From an uncultured bacterium (GTDB lineage Bacteria; Cyanobacteriota; Vampirovibrionia; Gastranaerophilales; Gastranaerophilaceae), in assembly GCA_949292175.1 (NCBI GenBank), contig CASEYJ010000003.1, forward strand, positions 248,001-312,000: DNA of 64,000 nt. Direction: 5' to 3'. Below are positions 2,054 to 26,107 of the stretch, in pieces (within the stretch, counting starts at the first letter, position 1; every line of letters begins with the position of its first letter). The position numbers were made by a program, and so were the translations under genes. Under the pieces are notes generated by a model. That model worked only from the letters and a program-made list of their open reading frames with translations, made no database searches and was not told where the DNA came from.

Positions 2054-3170
2054 TTTAATTTGCGGAAGTATAATTTCTTTAATATTTTTATTATTTTTTA
2101 TTATTGCAGAGATTTGCTATAGAAAAGGATTAAATGTTGAAATAACGAGGAAATTTGTTCATTTTGCAGGAGCATTTGTTACTATAATTTTCCCATTTAT
2201 TTTCAAAACACATTGGGCAGTCTTAATTTTGGCAGTATTGTTTTGTGGAGTAATGTTAATAACCAAAAAAACAGGAACACTACAATCTGTACATGCCGTC
2301 GAACGCAAATCTTACGGAGCAATCTATCATCCTATTGCAATATATATCTGCTTTGTGTATTCACAGTTTTTACATCAACCTTGGTTTTATGTTATTTCAA
2401 TTTTAATTCTTGCAGTATCAGATGCTTTTGCGGCACTTGTTGGGAAAAATTACGGTATGAATGAATATATCGTAGAAGTTGGAAGTAAAAAAACGATGGA
2501 AGGTTCATTTACATTTTTTTTAACATCATTTTTAATAACTCATTTAATTTTACTTTTAACAACAACTGTCGGTAAAGTAGAATCCGTTCTGGTGGCACTT
2601 TTAATTGCAATAATTATAACTATATTTGAAAGTGTTAGTTTAAAAGGTGCAGATAATTTATTTATCCCGATTGGAACAATGTTTATTTTATCAAAAAATA
2701 TCCAACCTACAGTTGAAGGAATAACATTCCAGCTGGTGGTATTAATTGCATTTCTGATAAGTTATTTAGTTATAATGCTTCCATATAAACGAATAGGTTT
2801 TTCCGGTGTTGTGCTGCTGGGTTTGATAAATTATATTATCTGGACATTACTAGGTAATATTTACGCTGCAACGCTTGCAATATTTTCATTACTCTGCGCA
2901 AAAACTGATATTATACTGAATTATGATTGCGATGAGGCTGATGCTTATCGAGTAAGACCAATATTTTATATTTTGACGGTTCCAGTTGCTTGTGCATTCT
3001 TGGGAAATTTTATTGGCGCAAAAATAATTTATCCTTTTATAACTTCAATAATTTGTGAAGGTTTTATCATTAAAACAAAATTTTTTAACGGAAATTTAAA
3101 TAAAGGTTTATGGGTAACATCAGTAATTTCGTTAATAGTTTTAGGAGCAAGTTATGTATTTATCAGATAG
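2046..3170 (+). CDS. CTP-dependent lipid kinase-like membrane protein (dolichol/phytol kinase family)
   Basis: A 374-aa polytopic membrane protein, mostly hydrophobic helices. It shows the order of motifs of the dolichol kinase/phytol kinase/CTP-diacylglycerol kinase family: RKFVHFAGAF near the N-terminus, AVSDAFAALVGKNYG, GSKKTMEGS, then a KGADNLFIPIG segment. Members phosphorylate polyprenols, phytol or diacylglycerol with CTP, or resemble CDP-DAG synthases. About 130 extra hydrophobic residues follow the core domain. GAGG lies just upstream of the ATG. Overlaps of 8 nt (upstream) and 17 nt (downstream) place it within the lipid operon, where it could phosphorylate or cytidylylate the lipid used by its neighbours. 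The substrate is unknown. Confidence 0.75.
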   Translation: MTDLICGSIISLIFLLFFIIAEICYRKGLNVEITRKFVHFAGAFVTIIFPFIFKTHWAVLILAVLFCGVMLITKKTGTLQSVHAVERKSYGAIYHPIAIYICFVYSQFLHQPWFYVISILILAVSDAFAALVGKNYGMNEYIVEVGSKKTMEGSFTFFLTSFLITHLILLLTTTVGKVESVLVALLIAIIITIFESVSLKGADNLFIPIGTMFILSKNIQPTVEGITFQLVVLIAFLISYLVIMLPYKRIGFSGVVLLGLINYIIWTLLGNIYAATLAIFSLLCAKTDIILNYDCDEADAYRVRPIFYILTVPVACAFLGNFIGAKIIYPFITSIICEGFIIKTKFFNGNLNKGLWVTSVISLIVLGASYVFIR

Positions 3171-16848: not shown

Positions 16849-17493
16849 TTAAATTTTTACACTTATATTATTTACCAAATTCTTCAATTCTTTTTGCAAA
16901 TCTTCATAAGAAAGTTCGAAATTATTATTACTATAATACCCTAAAAGAGAATGCATAATTTCAGCCCGAAATTTTTGTTCCGGTACAATAAGTTTCAAAT
17001 CTCGTCTTAAATTTCCAAGGTTTTCAATAATTTCATCCACCTTTTCCGGCAAAGCCTGCTCAACTAAATCCCTCAAAAAAGCAGCCCCATCCGGAGTTTT
17101 TCCGCTTGTTGAAATCCCGGCAACAAACGCTCCTTTCTTAATCAACGCAGGAAATATGAAAGAGCAATTTTCCATATCATCGACTGAATTTATCAAAATA
17201 TTATTTTTTCTGCATACCTCTGAAATCCAATTATTTACGGAACTGTTATTTGTCGCCGAAATCACAACAAAAGCACCTTTTATATCATCAACATCTACAT
17301 CCTTTTTTTTGTATACTAAATTCTTATTATTTTCCAAAAGAGTCTGAAGTTCCAAACATATTTCAGGTGAAACTATCGTAATTTTAGCTTCAAACGGAAG
17401 AAGCTTTATAACTTTCCTGTAAGCAACTTTGCCCCCTCCTACAATCAGGATATTTTTATTCTCTAAATCTACAAACAACGGGAAATAAGCCAT
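16849..17493 (-). CDS. Precorrin-2 dehydrogenase (SirC/CysG-N/Met8 family)
   Basis: A 214-aa protein with an N-terminal NAD-binding fold (NILIVGGGKVAYRKV) and the family's active-site segment SVDDMENCSFIFPALI, whose Asp is needed for dehydrogenation in CysG and Met8p, then FVAGISTSGKTPDGAAFLRD. It oxidises precorrin-2 to sirohydrochlorin and may also insert iron, since no separate SirB chelatase is in the window. ATG at 17493 is chosen: it overlaps the hemA stop by one base (TAATG) and has GGGAG upstream. A TTG at 17505 lies directly against that GGGAG. Confidence 0.88.
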   Translation of the reverse strand: MAYFPLFVDLENKNILIVGGGKVAYRKVIKLLPFEAKITIVSPEICLELQTLLENNKNLVYKKKDVDVDDIKGAFVVISATNNSSVNNWISEVCRKNNILINSVDDMENCSFIFPALIKKGAFVAGISTSGKTPDGAAFLRDLVEQALPEKVDEIIENLGNLRRDLKLIVPEQKFRAEIMHSLLGYYSNNNFELSYEDLQKELKNLVNNISVKI

Positions 17494-18644
17494 TATACGA
17501 TACAACTCCCTTCCTGTTCTATTGCATCTATCACATTTGCAAATGAATTTGCGTCCAATTTATCTTTCAAATGATATAAAAATTTTTCCAGAGAAAAATC
17601 TTTATACTTTTCATTTTGAATTTGAATTTTAGCCAAAGCGTTGTGATAAATTATATTTTTATAAATCTTTTGTAATTCTTGATTTAAAATATCGTGTGCA
17701 TCTTCTACGGCTTTTTCTCTTTTTAAATTATTGCTTCTCACAACTTCTTTAAAATAATCAATAGTAATCAGTTCACAATTTTCTATTTTAGAAATTTCCC
17801 TATCAATATCATAAGGAAGAGCTAAATCAATAAATAACACTTTTTTAGAAGACAAGTTTGAAATTGTATCTTCATAATTTATCGTATAATGAGGACTTTT
17901 CGTTGCAGAAACTACAATGTCCATATTTTTCAAATATTCAAATCTTCTTGTATAATCTAATACTTCAACTTTATCGGTAAAATCAATGGAATTTCCATGA
18001 ACCCTTTTTGTTGCATATATTTTAGCGTTGAAATCTTTATTTAAAATATTTCTTATAATCGTAGAACCAATCTTCCCGCTACCGCCAATTATCATAATCT
18101 TTGGAGATAATATGTTATTTTTTTGCATAAAATGTCTAATTTCGTTGCAAGCCAATGTTGCAAAAGATAATGCAGATTTTGAAATAGCAGTCTGCGTCTT
18201 GATTTTTTTTGCACAAGATAATGCACTCAAAAAAGTTGTATTCAATTCATACCCAGTTCTTTTCTCTCTCAATGAATCAAGATATGTCTGCTTAACCTGT
18301 GACAGAATTTCATTCTCTCCAACAATCATAGAATCCAGTCCGCAAGTGACTTTAAAAATATGCTCAATTGCACTTTGTTCTTCGTAATATCTGGCATATT
18401 TTCTTATTTCACTGACAGAAAGATTAGTCTTCTTTGCCAGCAAATCCTCTAAGATAGAAAACACACTACCCTTCGACTCAACATATATCTCTGTCCTGTT
18501 ACAAGTCGCCAGAATGATGCATTTTGCATCAGTTATAAATTCACTTAACTGAGATAAGAAATTTTCTCTTTCAGAATCCGTAAATGCAAATTTATTTCTA
18601 ATTTTTTCGGGAGCAGTTTTGAAACTTATACTTACACATTTCAA
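17493..18644 (-). CDS. hemA: Glutamyl-tRNA reductase
   Basis: A 383-aa enzyme that reduces glutamyl-tRNA to glutamate-1-semialdehyde, the committed step of the C5 pathway. Cys48 in ATCNRTEIYVE is the catalytic residue; GLDSMIVGENEILSQVKQTY and the NADPH-binding IGGSGKIGSTI follow. The start is TTG at 18644: AAGGAG sits 7 nt upstream, and the TTG overlaps the TGA of the reductase gene. A rare start within an overlap suggests translation coupled to the reductase. It is slightly shorter than typical HemA (about 420) but contains all domains. Confidence 0.93.
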   Translation of the reverse strand: MKCVSISFKTAPEKIRNKFAFTDSERENFLSQLSEFITDAKCIILATCNRTEIYVESKGSVFSILEDLLAKKTNLSVSEIRKYARYYEEQSAIEHIFKVTCGLDSMIVGENEILSQVKQTYLDSLREKRTGYELNTTFLSALSCAKKIKTQTAISKSALSFATLACNEIRHFMQKNNILSPKIMIIGGSGKIGSTIIRNILNKDFNAKIYATKRVHGNSIDFTDKVEVLDYTRRFEYLKNMDIVVSATKSPHYTINYEDTISNLSSKKVLFIDLALPYDIDREISKIENCELITIDYFKEVVRSNNLKREKAVEDAHDILNQELQKIYKNIIYHNALAKIQIQNEKYKDFSLEKFLYHLKDKLDANSFANVIDAIEQEGSCIV

Positions 18645-20200
18645 ATTGCAAACTCCTTGACGATTTCCATAAATCGTTCCGTATTATTATCAAGCCAACT
18701 ATCGAAATTAGAATTTGAAGCCTGAACTTCTCTACCTAATTTTCTGAACATTTCAGGAATATTATCGGCACTGATCGTTCCAAGAACTTCTCCAAAACGC
18801 TCACATCCTTGATATTCGTTGCCACCATAAAAAATATCAAATGCATCAACAAGCACACCATCTATTTTTTTCTTTCCGCCTTTAAAACCGATATTAGAAG
18901 TCTGGTGAACTCCACATGAAGACGGACAGCCAGAAATACATAACCTTGGCAATGTTCCATCAGTAAAATTTTCTTCCTTATCTACTTGAATAATTTTTCT
19001 TAAAAGCCCGCTTGAATCAGCCACCCCTTGCTGACATATTGTTGTTCCAACACAACTGACAGACTCTTGCAATTCAGTATCTGCGTTATCAGAACTCAAC
19101 AGGTCAAGCACCTTGTTTGCTTCACCGGTTGTCAAATTAGTAATATACATTTCTTCTTTTGTTGAAATTCTAATTCCAATATCCTCAAAATTAGAAACCA
19201 AATCATACAAGTCTTTTAAAACTTTAACTGAAGGATTACCCAACAAAGGATGATATTTAACTGCGTACAAACCATCTTGCTTTTGCTCTATTATATTCCT
19301 TGAAGGGTTTATTGCGACTCCATCACCTTGTTTTGAGATAGTTTTTTCATCAACAACGAAACTTAAATCCTCAGATTTCTTTAATTCTTCAAGGATACGC
19401 TTAAACTCTGATAAGTATAGCTCTTCCCCAATAGTTTTTGGAATATATCTTGTTCTAGCCTTTGCTCTGTTCTCATAATTACCATACTTCATAAACATTT
19501 GAACCATAGTCATCACATAATATAGAACATCTCCAGGTTCAATATCTTCAGCTGTTTTAATACCGAATTCAGGATTTACCCCAAGCCCGCCGGCAGTGTA
19601 TAAATCAAACTTCCCGTTTGCCTTTGCAACAAATCCCATATCTCTATAAGTTGCATGAACTATATTCTTTCGAGAATTTGAGAAGCCAACCTTCAACTTT
19701 CTTGGGAGTTTTATCTTGCCAATTAAATCTATTAGAAAATCTGAAACAACCTTAGCATAAGGACTTACATCAAAATATTCATCTTTTTCAACCCCTGACA
19801 AAGGAGAACACAAAACATTTCTCGGGTGATCACCGCCGCCACCACGCGTTACAATTCCGGCATCATAAGTTTCAAGCATCAAAGTCGGAATAACTTCAGG
19901 TTTTAAGTTATGAAATTGAATTGATTGGTTCGTTGTATAATGGACTTTCTCAACATTGTATTTCTCAATGCTGTCTAGAATAAACTTAAATTTATCAAAC
20001 TCTAAAATCCCTGCAGGAATTCTAAATCTGAGCATCCCTGTCTTATGCCCACGTTCAGAATATGTCCCGAAACCTCCGGATATAGATTTGTATTCTGACA
20101 TTGAAAGTTCACCGTTATAATAACTTTCACAAACTTTGCCAAAATCTTGAATTTCACGTCTAATACTTTTTTCATCAATCCTTCCGGATGTAATTGTCAT
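18641..20200 (-). CDS. Siroheme [4Fe-4S] sulfite/nitrite reductase
   Basis: About 519 aa, of the NirA/Sir family with two ferredoxin-like and two siroheme-binding halves. TGMLRFRIPAGIL, TTNQSIQFHNL and TRGGGGDHPRNVLCSPLSG are the first half. The cluster/siroheme ligands are CVGTTIC (Cx5C) and CISGCPSSCG (ending Cx3C). It reduces sulfite to sulfide or nitrite to ammonia with a small electron donor; sequence alone does not decide. ATG at 20200 is preferred because GGAG sits 9 nt upstream; an ATG at 20215 lacks a ribosome site. It is first in the operon that makes its own cofactor and lies beside an asrA remnant, which favours sulfite. Confidence 0.85.
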   Translation of the reverse strand: MTITSGRIDEKSIRREIQDFGKVCESYYNGELSMSEYKSISGGFGTYSERGHKTGMLRFRIPAGILEFDKFKFILDSIEKYNVEKVHYTTNQSIQFHNLKPEVIPTLMLETYDAGIVTRGGGGDHPRNVLCSPLSGVEKDEYFDVSPYAKVVSDFLIDLIGKIKLPRKLKVGFSNSRKNIVHATYRDMGFVAKANGKFDLYTAGGLGVNPEFGIKTAEDIEPGDVLYYVMTMVQMFMKYGNYENRAKARTRYIPKTIGEELYLSEFKRILEELKKSEDLSFVVDEKTISKQGDGVAINPSRNIIEQKQDGLYAVKYHPLLGNPSVKVLKDLYDLVSNFEDIGIRISTKEEMYITNLTTGEANKVLDLLSSDNADTELQESVSCVGTTICQQGVADSSGLLRKIIQVDKEENFTDGTLPRLCISGCPSSCGVHQTSNIGFKGGKKKIDGVLVDAFDIFYGGNEYQGCERFGEVLGTISADNIPEMFRKLGREVQASNSNFDSWLDNNTERFMEIVKEFAI

Positions 20201-20304
20201 AACTTTGTTCTCCATTTTGCTTTATTACATTTTACCTCAAAACAAGCCGTTTTACATTAAATATTTGTAAAGATTAGTCACCCCCACACTACAACATAAA
20301 AACT

Positions 20305-20333: not shown

Positions 20334-20368
20334 CATATGATAATTTTCATCTTATTATGGAGTTTATT

Positions 20369-20831
20369 ATGGGTTATAAAACAAATTTCGCTGGAATCAA
20401 TGAATTATTCTGTAAAATTACAGAAAGCAATTGAAGTTCAGGCAAAAATTTATGAAGAAAATGGTGATTTTCAAGATTTTTACTTTTCGAGAATTAAAAA
20501 CAAATTAAAATTTGTATTAATGGACTGTAACGGCGGTGATGACACTTGCTTTTGCCTAAGCATGAATTCAAACGTTACGGATAATTGGTCAATCGCAATT
20601 AAACAACTTGAAAATGAATATTTATTATCGGTTAAAGACGAAGAGTTCACACAATATTTCGACAATTGCGAACAAGCTGAATATTCACCTGAATTTGTCA
20701 AAGAGAACTCTCTCACTGTAAAAATAAAAGATATCCCAAACAAAGACGTACTAAATAAACTTAAACAGCATCCATTCTGGCAAGAAACCGAATACCGTTC
20801 TAACTTTAATGTTAAACCACCAAAAATTTAG
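20369..20831 (+). pseudogene. asrA: Anaerobic sulfite reductase subunit A (asrA) remnant with internal and 3' deletions
   Basis: A gene start with GGAG and ATG at 20369 opens MGYKTNFAGINELFCKITES, an AsrA-like N-terminus, but stops at 20434. A second frame, open from before this point to 20831, then matches the AsrA middle: DFYFSRIKNKLKFVLMDC, DDTCFCLSMNSNVTDN, EYSPEFVKENSLTV and KQHPFWQETEYRS. By comparison with Salmonella AsrA as I remember it, about 85 codons are missing between the two parts. The sequence also ends just before the cysteine-rich ferredoxin motifs (CISCGRC onwards). Both Fe-S domains are therefore lost. Promoter and terminator remain. A long frame starting at 20337 exists but is only the fused remnant. 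Confidence 0.8.
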
Positions 20832-20853: not shown

Positions 20854-22404
20854 CTAGGCAAGATTTTTCTTCTCTGCCTGCTGTTTTTTGGCTTTGTATC
20901 GTGTCATTTTATCATTAATCATAGGTAACACAAAGCCAAGTGTAATTGCAGAGTATGCAAGTCCTGCAATATGTGCAGCATTAAGTTTCCATATATTTTT
21001 CTTTGCAAAATTAGTGCCCTTTGATGCAATTTCAGCATGTGTTTTTAAGTTCAGGTCATTTAACCAATGTTTAAGCCCCTTTCCATCCTGCTTAATATTA
21101 AACAGATTTTTACAATCTTTGTCTAAAATATTAGCAACACCTTTAGCCGCAAATCCACCAAACACAAGCCAGTTTAAAAATCCAAAATAATCTCGGGTCA
21201 CAGATTCTCTCAATTCTGTATCATTGTCCGCTGCAAGAAAACGACCTACTATTGTTGAAGCATACACAGTTTTGATGGCATTTCCACTTGTAACAGGGCC
21301 GGTAAATTCTAATTTTTTAACAAAATCTTTCAAATTTTTAACTCGCATAACCGTAACTACCATTGCAATCATGCCGGCACTTGCTAATATTTTCTTCAAC
21401 CATAATTTTGGATCAAATTCCTGTTTTGTATTCTTGTTTGCTTTTGCTTTTTTAGCATAATCAACATCACCAACAAAACCCTTTTTACCTGTTCTCTTTT
21501 CGGTAATCTTTCTATTTATATATTGGTTAGTAAGCCCTAATGCAGAAGCTCCTGCTAAAGCCCCAAATATTTTGATATTATTAACTCTTGCAATCTTTTT
21601 CAATGCAAGATTCACATCAACACCACTATTTGCGAAAACTTTTTTACCCATATCATAAGTATCTCGAAGCACATTCTCAAGTGTTGCTGACAAATCATTT
21701 CCACCAATTTTTACATGAATATCTCTCTCAGCACCCAACGCATTTACAATTCTTGCCTGCATTATTTTCAACGCATTTTTTCTATCCTTGCTTGTTATAT
21801 TTTTAGAATTGATTAAGTCGGTCATAGTTGAAATCATACCGTCTTTTGTTTTCAATCTCTCAGCAAGCCCTGCGAAATTGGTATTATCCCAATTAATTTT
21901 TTCCCATCCTTTTGAATTTTGCCAATCTACATTGTCCCAATTAATATCTTTAAAATATTTTATATCTTTATAATCACGTCCACCTAAATTATCAAAAACA
22001 TTCCTTACATATTTTTCAACATTATTATCTGCATTATCCCAAGCTGCCTTCAAAACCCCAATAGAATCTTTTGAAAACCAAGTATTAGAATCAATCTTCA
22101 CATCAGGCATAACAAAATTATTCGCAATTTTGGCAATTCCAATACTCAACAACCCTGCAGATAAACAATTAATAAAAGTTCCGCTTAATTCTCTAAAAAA
22201 TGTTTCTGCACCTGCATCTTTATTTCTGGCCTTAGCATCATAATAAGTTCGGGGAGCTACCATTGCACCTACATCTATCAAAACAGCATTCGCCATTTCA
22301 TTAGTATCAAGAAGCTTTAAGCTACTTGTTAAAGCACCATCCAATGCGCCTTTAAAATTTTGTGGTCTACGTTTGACATCATAATTATCAATAGTTAATC
22401 TCAT
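20854..22404 (-). CDS. Lineage-specific membrane protein with N-terminal NFKG motif
   Basis: A 516-aa protein of unknown function. After a short basic N-terminus comes NFKG (residues 16-19). Residues ~70-95 are a hydrophobic helix; a Trp/Asp/Asn-rich patch (INWDNVDWQN, then EKINWDNTNF) follows. Several further hydrophobic helices occupy 270-500 (IFGALAGASALGLTNQYI, LASAGMIAMVVTVMRV, FLNWLVFGGFAAKGVANI, IAGLAYSAITLGFVLPMI). The end is Lys/Gln-rich. AAGGGGA precedes the ATG. Length, motif and helices resemble families I associate with Gastranaerophilales; no enzyme motif is seen. It is a single gene between the asrA remnant and the small peptide gene. Confidence 0.7.
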   Translation of the reverse strand: MRLTIDNYDVKRRPQNFKGALDGALTSSLKLLDTNEMANAVLIDVGAMVAPRTYYDAKARNKDAGAETFFRELSGTFINCLSAGLLSIGIAKIANNFVMPDVKIDSNTWFSKDSIGVLKAAWDNADNNVEKYVRNVFDNLGGRDYKDIKYFKDINWDNVDWQNSKGWEKINWDNTNFAGLAERLKTKDGMISTMTDLINSKNITSKDRKNALKIMQARIVNALGAERDIHVKIGGNDLSATLENVLRDTYDMGKKVFANSGVDVNLALKKIARVNNIKIFGALAGASALGLTNQYINRKITEKRTGKKGFVGDVDYAKKAKANKNTKQEFDPKLWLKKILASAGMIAMVVTVMRVKNLKDFVKKLEFTGPVTSGNAIKTVYASTIVGRFLAADNDTELRESVTRDYFGFLNWLVFGGFAAKGVANILDKDCKNLFNIKQDGKGLKHWLNDLNLKTHAEIASKGTNFAKKNIWKLNAAHIAGLAYSAITLGFVLPMINDKMTRYKAKKQQAEKKNLA

Positions 22405-22430
22405 GTGTTCCCCTTATATTTTTACATACT

Positions 22431-22463
22431 AAAAAATCCCGCCTAAACTACAATAGCGGGACC
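22431..22463 (-). terminator. Rho-independent terminator of the small peptide gene
   Basis: On the minus strand TCCCGC pairs with GCGGGA across a 13-nt loop and is followed by six T. It is the most GC-rich hairpin in the area and lies 36 nt after the peptide stop. Confidence 0.8.
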
Positions 22464-22498
22464 TAAATATTTATCACAAATTTCACTGCTTAAAAAAT

Positions 22499-22582
22499 CT
22501 AAACGCCAAAATTCATACAAGTCCCGGAGCACTTGGATGAGGAGGAGGAGTTATTAGATTTTACAGTAAATAAATTCATCAT
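22499..22582 (-). CDS. 27-residue Ser-rich, two-cysteine peptide
   Basis: A tiny gene with all signals: a promoter (22600-22629), AGGA 5-6 nt before ATG-ATG (22582 or 22579), 27 codons, stop, and a strong terminator. The product starts MMNLFTVKSNN, has five consecutive Ser coded by a near-perfect TCC repeat, then KCSGTC and ends MNFGV. There is no hydrophobic signal sequence. The Cx3C pair and Ser run recall modified-peptide (RiPP) precursors or small secreted signals, but no modifying enzyme is adjacent and I recognise no family. Together with its spacers it explains the 360-nt gap between the FKG gene and the CoA-disulfide reductase. Confidence 0.55.
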   Translation of the reverse strand: MMNLFTVKSNNSSSSSKCSGTCMNFGV

Positions 22583-22599
22583 ATTTTTCCTATGCTTGT

Positions 22600-22629
22600 A
22601 GTATAAATCAAAACTAAAATTTTTGTCAA
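22600..22629 (-). promoter_or_regulatory. Sigma70 promoter of the small peptide gene
   Basis: On the minus strand TTGACA (22624-22629) is followed by 18 nt and TATACT (22600-22605), 18 nt before the first ATG. Confidence 0.7.
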
Positions 22630-22764
22630 TAACCAAAATTGATAATTTAATTCTTAAAATAAAATTAAAATTTGCATATTGATTGTTCACAAGTTGCTAT
22701 AATATAGACAAATTTGATAATATAAACATATTGTACGAACATACTAATAAAATGCGAGGTTAAT

Positions 22765-24390
22765 ATGAAAGTAGTTATAATTGGCGGTGGAGCTTGTGGT
22801 GCGAGTTGTGCAGCCCGCCTAAGAAGATTAGATGAAAATTGTGAAATCACTATCCTTGAAAGAACTGACGAAGTTTCTATTGCAAATTGTGGCTTACCAT
22901 ATTATTGCTCCGGAGTGATTAAAGATAGAGAAAATATTCTGGTTTCGACTCCTGCACGCTTTAAAAATATGTTTAATATTAACGTACACCTAAATAGTGA
23001 AGTTGTCGAAATTAACAAAAAAGAAAAATTTGTACTTACACAAACAAATGTGAAATTTTATTACGATAAATTAGTCTTGGCACAAGGTGCAAATCCTATT
23101 AAACCAAACTTAGATGGAATAAATAATAAAAATATTTTTTCAGTAAGAACATTAAACGATGCTGATAATATCAAAAATTACATAGCACAGAATAATGTTA
23201 AAAATGCTGTCGTAATCGGCGGAGGTTTCATTGGTGTGGAAATGGCTGAAAACCTAGCACATTTAAACATCGATACAAAACTTATAGAATTATCCGACCA
23301 AATTCTAACACCTGTTGATAAAGAAATTGCAAGTTTTGCTCAAAATGAAATGAGAGCAAATGGTATAGAATTAATATTATCAGATGGTGTAAAATCTTTC
23401 AGCCACAATGAAATTGAATTATCATCAGGAAGAAAAATTCCATATAACATTGCAATCCTATCAATAGGAGTAAAACCGGAAATAACTCTTGCGCAAAATG
23501 CAGGATTAGAAGTAAACAGAGGCATCAAAGTTAATGATAACTTGCAAACTTCGGACTCTGACATCTATGCCGGAGGCGACAGCATCGAAGTTAAAAGTTT
23601 TATTTCAGATGAAGATGTTTTAATCCCGCTTGCAGGACCTGCAAACCGACAGGGACGAATTATTGCAGACAACATTTGCGGAATAAATTCTACTTACAAA
23701 AAATCACAAGGCACTTCAGTTCTAAAAGTTTTTGACTACACCGTTGCAACAACAGGCTACAATGAAAAACTTTTACAAAAAGAACAAATACCTTATTGGA
23801 AAGTATTAACAGTTGGGAATTCCCATGCCGGATACTATCCTGATGCAACTCCAAGTTTATTTAAACTTCTTTTTAATACCGAAGGAGAAATTCTTGGCGC
23901 ACAAGCGGTAGGCCAAAAGGGAGTTGAAAAAAGAATAGATGTTATAGCTTCTGTTATGAGAAATAATGGTAAAATTCAAGAACTACTTGATAGCGAACTT
24001 TGTTACGCACCACCATATTCTTCAGCAAAAGATCCGGTTAATATCCTAGGAATGTGTGCAGATAATGTTTTGAGAGGATTTGTAAAACCTGCATATTATG
24101 AAGATATTCAAGACGCAGTCCTTATTGATGTAAGAATTCCTGAAAGCTACAAAGCTAAAACTATTGCAGGAGCAATTAATATTCCAATAGGTGAATTAAG
24201 AAACAGAATTGACGAAATTCCAAAAGACAAAAAAGTAATTTTATTCTGTAACACAGGCTACACAAGCTATCTTGCATCAAGAATATTAGTTCAACACGGT
24301 TTTAACAATGTATATTCGTTGATGGCAGGAATAAAATTATATAATGAAATTCAAAGAGATAAGGAAGCAAAAGTAAAAAATCTTATATAA
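22765..24390 (+). CDS. cdr: CoA-disulfide reductase with C-terminal rhodanese domain
   Basis: A 541-aa flavoprotein. Residues 1-440 are a pyridine-nucleotide-disulfide oxidoreductase: FAD-binding VVIIGGGACGAS, the single active Cys42 in SIANCGLPYY, NAD-binding VVIGGGFIGVEMAE, and DSDIYAGGDSIEV. Residues ~455-540 are a rhodanese domain with CNTGYTSY as active loop. CoADR-RHD proteins reduce CoA disulfide or persulfides with NAD(P)H, linking thiol redox and sulfane sulfur. CGAGG precedes the ATG; a TATAAT at 22698-22703 is the likely -10. It stands alone, between sulfur-reduction genes and Hcp, which fits a role in reactive-sulfur or oxygen stress. Confidence 0.87.
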   Translation: MKVVIIGGGACGASCAARLRRLDENCEITILERTDEVSIANCGLPYYCSGVIKDRENILVSTPARFKNMFNINVHLNSEVVEINKKEKFVLTQTNVKFYYDKLVLAQGANPIKPNLDGINNKNIFSVRTLNDADNIKNYIAQNNVKNAVVIGGGFIGVEMAENLAHLNIDTKLIELSDQILTPVDKEIASFAQNEMRANGIELILSDGVKSFSHNEIELSSGRKIPYNIAILSIGVKPEITLAQNAGLEVNRGIKVNDNLQTSDSDIYAGGDSIEVKSFISDEDVLIPLAGPANRQGRIIADNICGINSTYKKSQGTSVLKVFDYTVATTGYNEKLLQKEQIPYWKVLTVGNSHAGYYPDATPSLFKLLFNTEGEILGAQAVGQKGVEKRIDVIASVMRNNGKIQELLDSELCYAPPYSSAKDPVNILGMCADNVLRGFVKPAYYEDIQDAVLIDVRIPESYKAKTIAGAINIPIGELRNRIDEIPKDKKVILFCNTGYTSYLASRILVQHGFNNVYSLMAGIKLYNEIQRDKEAKVKNLI

Positions 24391-24517
24391 TCTAATTTAT
24401 TTACATAATATTCATAACTTTTTTCATAGACTGCAGAAAAAAATATAGCTAAAAGAATTATATAGTTTTATCAAGACATATAATTGTTGTTGCTATATTA
24501 TTTGAGTGCGTATTCAC

Positions 24518-24550
24518 TAGTTAAAAATTTTTATAAAGAACGTTTAACTA
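24518..24550. promoter_or_regulatory. 8-bp inverted repeat in the hcp leader
   Basis: TAGTTAAA (24518-24525) and TTTAACTA (24543-24550) form a perfect inverted repeat with a 17-nt AT-rich spacer, 24 nt before the hcp ATG. It could be an operator for a dimeric regulator or a hairpin over the leader. No recognised Fnr/NsrR consensus was seen. Confidence 0.4.
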
Positions 24551-24574
24551 ATATGTATAACGAAGGAGAAAATT

Positions 24575-26107
24575 ATGAGTATGTTTTGTTTTCAATGTGA
24601 ACAGACTGCGCAAGGGAAAGGCTGTACGGTGCAGGGCATATGTGGCAAAAAAGCTGATACGGCAAATCTTCAAGATGATTTGACAAGCAAATTAATTGAG
24701 TTAGCAAATTGCGGACAGAAAAATGATGCTAATACAAAACTAATTATTGACGGGCTTTTTACTACCATTACTAATGTGAATTTTGATGATAAATCCATAA
24801 AAGATTTTATTCAAAAAGTACAAGATAGTATTAGCTGTGAGTCAAAATTCGATATAAAAACCGTATGGAATTGTAATGAAGATATGAGAAGCCTAAAGTC
24901 TTTAGTTTTGTTTGGCCTAAAGGGAATGGCAGCTTACGCCCATCACGCGAGAGTTTTAGGTTATAAAGATCCAGAAGTGGATGATTTCTTTTATGAAGCA
25001 TTGCAGGGAGTCTCTAAGGAGCTTTCTGCGGATGAGTTATTAAAACTGGTCTTAAAGACTGGGGAAATAAATTTGAAGTGTATGGAACTTTTGGACAAGG
25101 CAAATACTCAGACTTATGGTATTCCTTCTCCCCAAAAAGTCACTACAAATATCGAAAAAGGTCCGTTTATAATCGTGACGGGTCATGATTTGAGGGATTT
25201 AAGTCTGCTTTTAGAACAAACAAAGGATAAGGGTATAAATATTTATACTCATGGTGAAATGTTACCTTGTCATGCTTATCCGGAATTGAATAAGTACCCT
25301 CATTTGAAAGGAAATTTTGGGACAGCTTGGCAAAATCAACAAAAAGAATTTGATAATGTTCCTGCAGCAATTCTGTTTACGACAAATTGTATTATGCCTG
25401 TAAAAAATAGTTATAAGGACAGGGTATTTACAACTTCAGTAGTAGAATATCCTGAAATTGTTCATATTGGTGAAGATAAAGACTTTACTTCAGTGATTAA
25501 AAAAGCTCTGGAACTTGGCGGATACGATGAAGATAAAAAGATGACCGGAATAAATGGCGGAGATATTTTGACGGTTGGCTTTGGACATAATACAGTTTTG
25601 TCTGTTGCTGATAGAGTTATTGATGCTGTAAAATCCGGCGATATAAAGCACATCTTTTTAGTAGGAGGTTGCGATGGTGCAAAGCCTGGTAGAAATTATT
25701 ATACAGAGTTTGTAAAACTACTTCCAAAAGATACAATTGTTTTGACTCTTGCTTGCGGCAAGTATCGATTTAACGATTTGGATTTGGGCGAAATTAACGG
25801 AATTCCGAGATTACTTGATATGGGACAGTGTAACGATGCGTATTCTGCAATAAAAGTTGCAGTCGAACTTTCAAAAGCATTTAATTGTTCGGTTAATAAG
25901 CTTCCTTTGTCTCTTGTATTATCTTGGTACGAGCAAAAAGCGGTGTGTATATTATTAACACTCCTATATTTGGGTATTGAAAATATAAAACTCGGTCCGA
26001 CACTGCCTGCTTTTGTGTCACCAAATGTGTTGAATATTTTGGTAGATAAATATAAAATAAAACCAATCACAACTCCAGAACAAGATATCAAGGAGATATT
26101 GAACTAA
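24575..26107 (+). CDS. hcp: Hybrid-cluster protein (hydroxylamine reductase / NO-stress enzyme)
   Basis: A 510-aa Hcp. The N-terminal cluster ligands are C5, C8, C17 and C23 (Cx2Cx8Cx5C), the spacing of Hcp from strict anaerobes. Further ligands lie in YTHGEMLPCHAYPEL, TTNCIMP, GGCDGAKPGRNYY and LACGKYRFN, which hold the [4Fe-2O-2S] hybrid cluster. Hcp reduces NO to N2O, or hydroxylamine to ammonia in vitro, and in some bacteria drives protein S-nitrosylation. GAAGGAG precedes the ATG. A single-gene unit with an inverted repeat in its leader and a strong terminator behind it; no hcr reductase gene is adjacent. Confidence 0.95.
   Translation: MSMFCFQCEQTAQGKGCTVQGICGKKADTANLQDDLTSKLIELANCGQKNDANTKLIIDGLFTTITNVNFDDKSIKDFIQKVQDSISCESKFDIKTVWNCNEDMRSLKSLVLFGLKGMAAYAHHARVLGYKDPEVDDFFYEALQGVSKELSADELLKLVLKTGEINLKCMELLDKANTQTYGIPSPQKVTTNIEKGPFIIVTGHDLRDLSLLLEQTKDKGINIYTHGEMLPCHAYPELNKYPHLKGNFGTAWQNQQKEFDNVPAAILFTTNCIMPVKNSYKDRVFTTSVVEYPEIVHIGEDKDFTSVIKKALELGGYDEDKKMTGINGGDILTVGFGHNTVLSVADRVIDAVKSGDIKHIFLVGGCDGAKPGRNYYTEFVKLLPKDTIVLTLACGKYRFNDLDLGEINGIPRLLDMGQCNDAYSAIKVAVELSKAFNCSVNKLPLSLVLSWYEQKAVCILLTLLYLGIENIKLGPTLPAFVSPNVLNILVDKYKIKPITTPEQDIKEILN

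Follow-up and report, generated by a model that had tools for sequence, protein, structure and literature searches.

A putative serine-sensing transcription attenuator upstream of an orphan protein gene in Gastranaerophilales

We found that the unit at positions 22431–22629 of a 64,000-nucleotide stretch of Gastranaerophilales DNA (the window) lies on the minus strand, where it forms the leader of the gene at 22404–20854, and is not the stand-alone mini-gene that a first-pass annotation had described. On comparative grounds this candidate unit is most probably a ribosome-mediated transcription attenuator of the trp, his and leu type in which serine is sensed, and we put the probability of this reading at roughly 0.86. 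The assembly from which the window was taken comprised 1.63 Mb in 17 contigs and was 90.25% complete.

The anatomy of the element emerged from comparative sequence analysis together with folding. All parts that the first-pass annotation had named, a TTGACA-18-TATACT promoter, an AGGA site, 27 codons and a GC-rich terminator with six T, were recovered on the minus strand. The −35 box TTGACA (22624–22629) and the −10 box TATACT (22600–22605), separated by 18 nt, are conserved in the window and in its two nearest copies, G009 and G021. This promoter matched the consensus at 11 of 12 positions and was the best of nine promoter-like sites in 22300–22900, a region in which shuffled sequences gave 3.1. 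The Shine-Dalgarno-like AGGA site (22588–22591) precedes, by a few nucleotides, the ATG of the leader open reading frame (ORF) MMNLFTVKSNNSSSSSKCSGTCMNFGV, which has 27 codons and a stop (27 amino acids; 22499–22582), and comparable leader ORFs precede the orthologs of the downstream gene. Within it the codon run UCC UCC UCC UCA UCC encodes five serines (22535–22549). TCC accounts for 62 of the 1231 serine codons in the 44 long ORFs of the window.

Four pairing regions accompany the run. Folding placed region 1 (CAAGU, 22531–22535) in a UNCG-type hairpin with region 2, the anti-antiterminator. Folding and covariation together defined region 2 (CGGGACUUG, 22518–22526), whose partner is either region 1 or region 3; region 3 (AGGUCCCGC, 22456–22464), which pairs with region 2 as the antiterminator or with region 4 as the terminator; and region 4 (GGCGGGAUU, 22435–22443), the 3′ arm of the terminator. 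The terminator stem, GGUCCCGC...GCGGGAUU, is a GC-rich hairpin followed by six U (22431–22436). It was missed by a consensus scan because the scan allows loops of 3–8 nt and the actual loop is longer. The six U end at 22431 and the ATG of the downstream gene lies on the same strand at 22404, leaving a gap of 27 nt. This gene (20854–22404) encodes a mostly helical orphan protein of 516 amino acids, without a family or fold match, and has its own purine-rich site before the ATG. No Rfam family reached its gathering score in the 64-kb window, and no T-box was detected at E ≤ 10 in 22400–22660; weak Rfam matches at E 2–10 (eukaryotic snoRNAs and others) were rejected as chance. When the rest of the window genome was searched, the inspected five-TCN matches (30 of 31) held no second run in a leader setting, and the inspected four-TGY matches (30 of 32) held no leader.

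The proposed switch would operate as follows. Transcription would begin some 10 nt before the leader ORF, which a ribosome would translate behind the RNA polymerase. With charged tRNA-Ser plentiful, the ribosome would pass the UCC/UCA run, region 1:2 would form or region 2 would be covered, and regions 3 and 4 would then form the terminator, halting transcription 27 nt before the 516-aa gene. With charged tRNA-Ser scarce, the ribosome would stall in the run and cover region 1; region 2 would then pair with region 3, the terminator would be blocked and the gene transcribed. The run consists of cysteine codons in paralogs and in the ancestral version, where this switch would sense cysteine, and one lineage was recoded to serine a single time. 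Sequence comparison and folding establish the anatomy, the covariation, the linkage to one gene, the codon run and the single switch; translation, stalling, the direction of the response and seryl-tRNA as the signal are what we infer.

A homolog search in related genomes, which the first-pass annotation had advised, was productive. Among 57 genomes, near copies were present in G009 (92% identical) and G021 (88%), and leaders upstream of orthologs were then found in a wider set. Both near copies retained the leader ORF, and in both the first Cys is replaced by Tyr, which removes the Cx3C pair singled out by that annotation as a feature of the peptide. Two of four changed leader codons in G009 and all four in G021 altered the residue, so that a mostly synonymous pattern was absent, and in these three sequences the stretch 3′ of the leader stop codon was as conserved as the ORF itself. 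At that stage a trans-acting small RNA, whose CUCCUCC stretch would pair with Shine-Dalgarno sites, seemed likely; the element has the C-rich stretch, its own promoter and terminator, and a strong fold, better than 200 of 200 shuffles (z = −3.13). The wider set, with its gene linkage and kept frame, turned the argument. The same gene family was directly downstream in 30 of the 30 best loci of a covariance model built from the three sequences (window, G009, G021); relatives show UCAUCAUCC or a UGU/UGC run in place of the C-rich stretch, with the frame unchanged; and region 2 stays complementary to region 3 through covariation. We therefore regard a small RNA as very unlikely. Of 383 family genomes, 78 had a match to the covariance model at E ≤ 1, but this is no count of leaders, because ten of the weak places inspected in other genera (L185–L194) lacked a Ser or Cys leader ORF.

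The linkage of the attenuator-like leader to one gene was examined further by scanning named genomes with the downstream protein, and the best 80 of 98 loci were studied. A leader ORF with at least three consecutive Ser preceded the gene in 67 of the 80 loci, and a Cys-run leader in 11 (CCCC in ten, CCC in L164; an example is MTNKINAKLTNCCCCKFKGGTY). One locus had a broken Ser run (L137, NTSSNCSK) and one, L121, had no run. The L121 gene belongs to the Ser clade, and its leader has apparently been lost: upstream of position 3001 of that locus a promoter-like sequence is still present, and the Ser run and terminator were not found. A Ser or Cys run of at least three in a short upstream ORF was present at 78/80 family genes versus 4/316 neighbour genes at the same loci, and a run of at least four at 62/80 versus 0/316. 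The unit described in the first pass thus recurs upstream of orthologs beyond chance. The genes around these loci differ across the set, with no conserved neighbour, so it is the leader and the gene that travel together. The 80 loci are not independent: some nearly duplicate one another, a single assembly contributed both L112 and L160, a second one L085 and L103, and the contig of L153 seems to be that of the G021 locus. The last of these pairs, L085 (CASELF010000021.1) and L103 (CASELF010000060.1), represents two orthologs in one metagenome assembly, one of which encodes a protein identical to that of the window; the L085 contig may be mis-binned. The closest named protein relatives, among the matches listed, were Candidatus Gastranaerophilales and Candidatus Scatousia records; in the NCBI taxonomy, Candidatus Gastranaerophilales belongs to Candidatus Melainabacteria. 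The source is thus very probably a Melainabacterium of the gut.

Comparison of the 67 Ser leaders revealed what is kept and what is free to change. The Ser run varied in length from 3 to 10, bearing out the suggestion of the first-pass annotation that it could differ between strains. TCC made up 216 of 456 serine codons (47%) in these leaders versus 64 of 1384 (5%) in the downstream genes. These features bear on a second possibility, that the element is an attenuator whose signal is not charged tRNA-Ser, with the run or the nascent peptide stalling ribosomes under general translation stress or a drug. The anatomy would look alike, as in drug-sensing leaders, and the downstream gene, which does not belong to serine biosynthesis, has no known link to serine. 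The N-terminal part of the peptide varies freely, however, and the homopolymer run alone is kept; moreover, the run is either Ser or Cys and uses the rare UCC for Ser, which suggests a sensor of tRNA charging. A signal of this other kind therefore seems improbable to us, though it deserves some weight.

The reading frame was kept from the start codon through the Ser run and was lost after it, and since the frame is kept over that part the leader ORF looks to be translated. A conserved block after the run, CGGGACUU and its variants, forms the core of region 2. Seven of the 67 Ser leaders were dropped, as no terminator was found or the wrong hairpin was picked. In the 60 that had a usable one, this block was read in three frames relative to the run, in 39, 12 and 9 leaders, and is thus kept as RNA and not as amino acids. 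It was complementary to the 5′ arm of the terminator (region 2:3) in 60 of 60 leaders, with p ≤ 0.05 against shuffles in 57. Furthermore, at five of the eight core positions both sides changed in a pair-keeping way and region 4 changed in step; position 4 went from G-C to A-U nine times and position 5 from A-U to G-C six times, where the tallies count sequences and not independent events. Such covariation of three strands is expected if two rival hairpins share one arm.

The first-pass annotation had proposed to decide between a peptide and a small RNA by asking whether the frame or the RNA structure is conserved. The outcome was divided: up to the run it is the frame that is kept, and after the run the RNA, as expected of an attenuator. 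The same data weigh against a functional small peptide, be it a signal, a RiPP precursor or a metal binder. The full gene anatomy and a similar peptide in the two nearest relatives would suit such a gene, but the C-terminal part follows the RNA pairing and occurs in three frames, the nearest relatives have lost the Cys pair, other relatives have Cys in place of the Ser run, and the next gene comes directly after the terminator. As to a linked RiPP-modifying enzyme, no neighbouring gene was conserved across the loci, and four larger window proteins from the vicinity were searched in Pfam. The signalling, modified-peptide and metal-binding roles offered in the first pass are accordingly hardly credible.

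Folding of the window leader was consistent with the attenuator, within limits. Without a ribosome, region 1:2 and the terminator formed. When transcription had just passed region 3 and the A site was placed on any one of Ser codons 1–4, 6.9–7.9 pairs of region 2:3 formed within a long hairpin; with the ribosome on Ser codon 5, region 2:3 did not form in the model, which assumes a ribosome edge 15 nt beyond the point where the A codon starts. A ribosome at the stop codon allowed the terminator to form. At equilibrium with region 4 present, stalling of the ribosome did not keep the terminator from winning; the switch must therefore be kinetic, depending on the order of synthesis. Across the 60 leaders, region 2:3 formed on stalling in 59 (each value being the best of several codons), and the free, full-length RNA formed the terminator in 57. 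Without a ribosome and before region 4 was synthesized, region 2:3 stayed below 0.2 in just 31 of 60; the remaining 29 depart from the simplest model, in which the ground state is fully closed.

We also found Cys leaders upstream of more distant relatives of the gene, most of which are about 46% identical over residues 175–510. A script detected a Cys run of at least three at 15 of 20 such loci. In the remaining five, L182 is cut off by a contig end so that it begins within a Cys4 run, L167 (CRCC), L171 (CCAC) and L178 (CC) are degenerate, and the stretch taken for L170 fell short of the gene start, the correct stretch (L225) showing CCCH. The 1-2-3-4 layout was present in 17 of 28 Cys leaders at p ≤ 0.05; 11 failed the pairing test, and in several of these (L173, L174, L180 and L199, by eye) the script had picked the wrong hairpin. 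In L181, counted as Cys, a clear terminator was not seen. Ser and Cys leaders occur together in the genomes G308 (L047, L176), G283 (L040, L238), G372 (L034, L237) and G253 (L050, L239), the run of L238 being CCSC. The distant paralogs in the window genome (L081, L082) had no such leader by eye, and neither did five of five distant paralogs of other genomes (L240–L244) by script. At L165, L169, L175 and L179 the Cys leader is closely preceded by a short ORF rich in Cys, for example MEQCSCKEPKWVNSCKSTLETGELSAKCKSCSGGCCCSNKQ, and the product of this ORF could be a metal-binding or sulfur-storage protein.

In FastTree gene trees of 100 and then 104 genes, one change between Ser and Cys leaders sufficed. 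The Ser-leader genes grouped in a single clade (support 99) surrounded by Cys leaders. Because this clade is nested in Cys leaders and given the chosen outgroup, the trees indicate a one-time switch of the regulatory codons from Cys to Ser, with Cys ancestral. The change from UGY to UCN takes one base per codon.

We then compared leader type with the capacity for serine synthesis in 30 draft genomes, 20 with Ser leaders (of the 68 Ser loci) and 11 with Cys leaders, G508 having both. SerA exceeded the cut-off in 9 of 10 Cys-only genomes and 9 of 19 Ser-only genomes but stayed below it in G508; the tenth Cys-only genome, G507, had a 419.5-bit serA piece at a contig end. The same nine Ser genomes also passed the cut-off for serB, as did 6 of the 10 with only Cys leaders. 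The association of serA with leader type (Fisher p = 0.004 with the G507 piece counted as present and G508 placed with Ser; 0.024 with the piece counted as absent) amounts to a single event, as there is one switch on the tree, and is no test of cause. In the draft window genome neither serA nor serB exceeded the cut-off (best 59.7 and 23.7 bits) and cysE was present, and the relative G512 was the same for all three. Since serA and serB were not recognised and cysE was, the organism is probably auxotrophic for serine, from which it makes its cysteine.

The 516-aa protein gave a confident, mostly helical model (pLDDT 85.6, pTM 0.83). It had no Pfam match above cut-off, no NCBIfam match, no PHROG match (best E 0.043) and no sequence relative in the PDB (best E 0.092); an alignment of 58 family members gave a best listed family match of only E 0.015. 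Foldseek returned no PDB chain or viral model at E ≤ 0.001, either with the whole model or with the C-terminal 277 residues, a poorer model (pLDDT 77.8). Two structural candidates were set aside: the best VIA row, a Na+-pyrophosphatase (Z 5.8, rmsd 5.3, 165 aligned), fell within the chance range for helical models, and GltPh bound to serine (Foldseek E 0.17, probability 0.06) was not accepted as evidence. Four hydropathy segments exceeded 1.2, and judged by its sequence a membrane location is only possible. Our guess is that this helical protein, which may be bound to the membrane, contributes to obtaining serine, ancestrally cysteine; the guess is the simplest one from the regulation and does not derive from features of the protein. 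A broader scenario, which we offer tentatively and consider rather doubtful, is that a lineage-specific helical protein family in Gastranaerophilales obtains serine or cysteine, each under an attenuator with matching codons, and that one branch, after the loss of serine synthesis, recoded its sensor from Cys to Ser, in which case the codons would announce the substrate of a transport or salvage family.

Attenuation is a textbook mechanism, and its classical ribosome-mediated forms are the trp, his, leu, ilv and thr leaders of Proteobacteria, the leu leader using rare synonymous codons. The window leader shares with them a Shine-Dalgarno-led short ORF, a regulatory codon run, rare synonymous codons, mutually exclusive 1:2, 2:3 and 3:4 pairings and an intrinsic terminator before the structural gene. 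It differs from them in its serine codons, the orphan regulated gene, the Gastranaerophilales lineage and the evolutionary change from Cys to Ser. The leaderless polycysteine ORFs of mycobacteria, in work attributed to Canestrari in 2020, reportedly respond to cysteine. They resemble the ancestral leaders described here in being short upstream ORFs with a Cys run, which in mycobacteria is near the stop; the window ORF, in contrast, is Shine-Dalgarno-led and has a Ser run, an intrinsic terminator with an antiterminator, and an orphan gene downstream. The serine T-box riboswitch senses seryl-tRNA charging and controls a terminator by reading uncharged tRNA directly, without a leader peptide. Both it and the window element would thus sense seryl-tRNA charging at a terminator, but the latter has a leader ORF and no T-box match.

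Among published systems, one study describes trp attenuators in Corynebacterium and Streptomyces, and poly-Cys leaders predicted in Actinobacteria before cys operons, where obvious terminators were absent (PMC1262725). In Bacillus subtilis, according to another paper, UCN codons slow most on serine depletion, and slow translation at the UCN serine codons of sinR is the signal; there the codons lie within the regulated protein itself and there is no RNA switch, an arrangement that the paper contrasts with attenuation (PMC3862929). According to a 2010 survey, Proteobacteria and Actinobacteria were until then the only groups in which leader-peptide systems were known; the survey added Firmicutes, and the word serine does not occur in it (PMC2965389). 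Among the matches listed in the open-licence literature we found neither a leader-peptide attenuator that reads serine nor an attenuator in Melainabacteria. If the attenuator reading is true, serine would join the amino acids read by attenuators, Melainabacteria would have a full terminator/antiterminator attenuator, and the UGY-to-UCN change would be a natural one-step change of the sensed amino acid. It would also offer a first functional handle on an orphan protein family of many gut bacteria.

Two minor observations concern the regulated gene. In the window it is set among sulfur and haem genes (16849–20215 on the minus strand; 20337–20831 and 22765–26107 on the plus strand), a setting not common to the 80 loci. 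Among them are a protein with a nitrite/sulfite reductase domain and a rhodanese-domain pyridine nucleotide-disulphide oxidoreductase, and an AsrA-like piece scored 91.9 bits, below the cut-off of 323; we take further nearby ORFs to be HemA-like, siroheme-synthase-like and hybrid-cluster-like. In addition, many family members start (22404–22340, minus strand, in the window) with a segment of low model confidence that ends in F-K/R/N-G (NFKG, FRGP, FNG) ahead of the first helix; this segment may be a lineage-specific sorting or processing signal.
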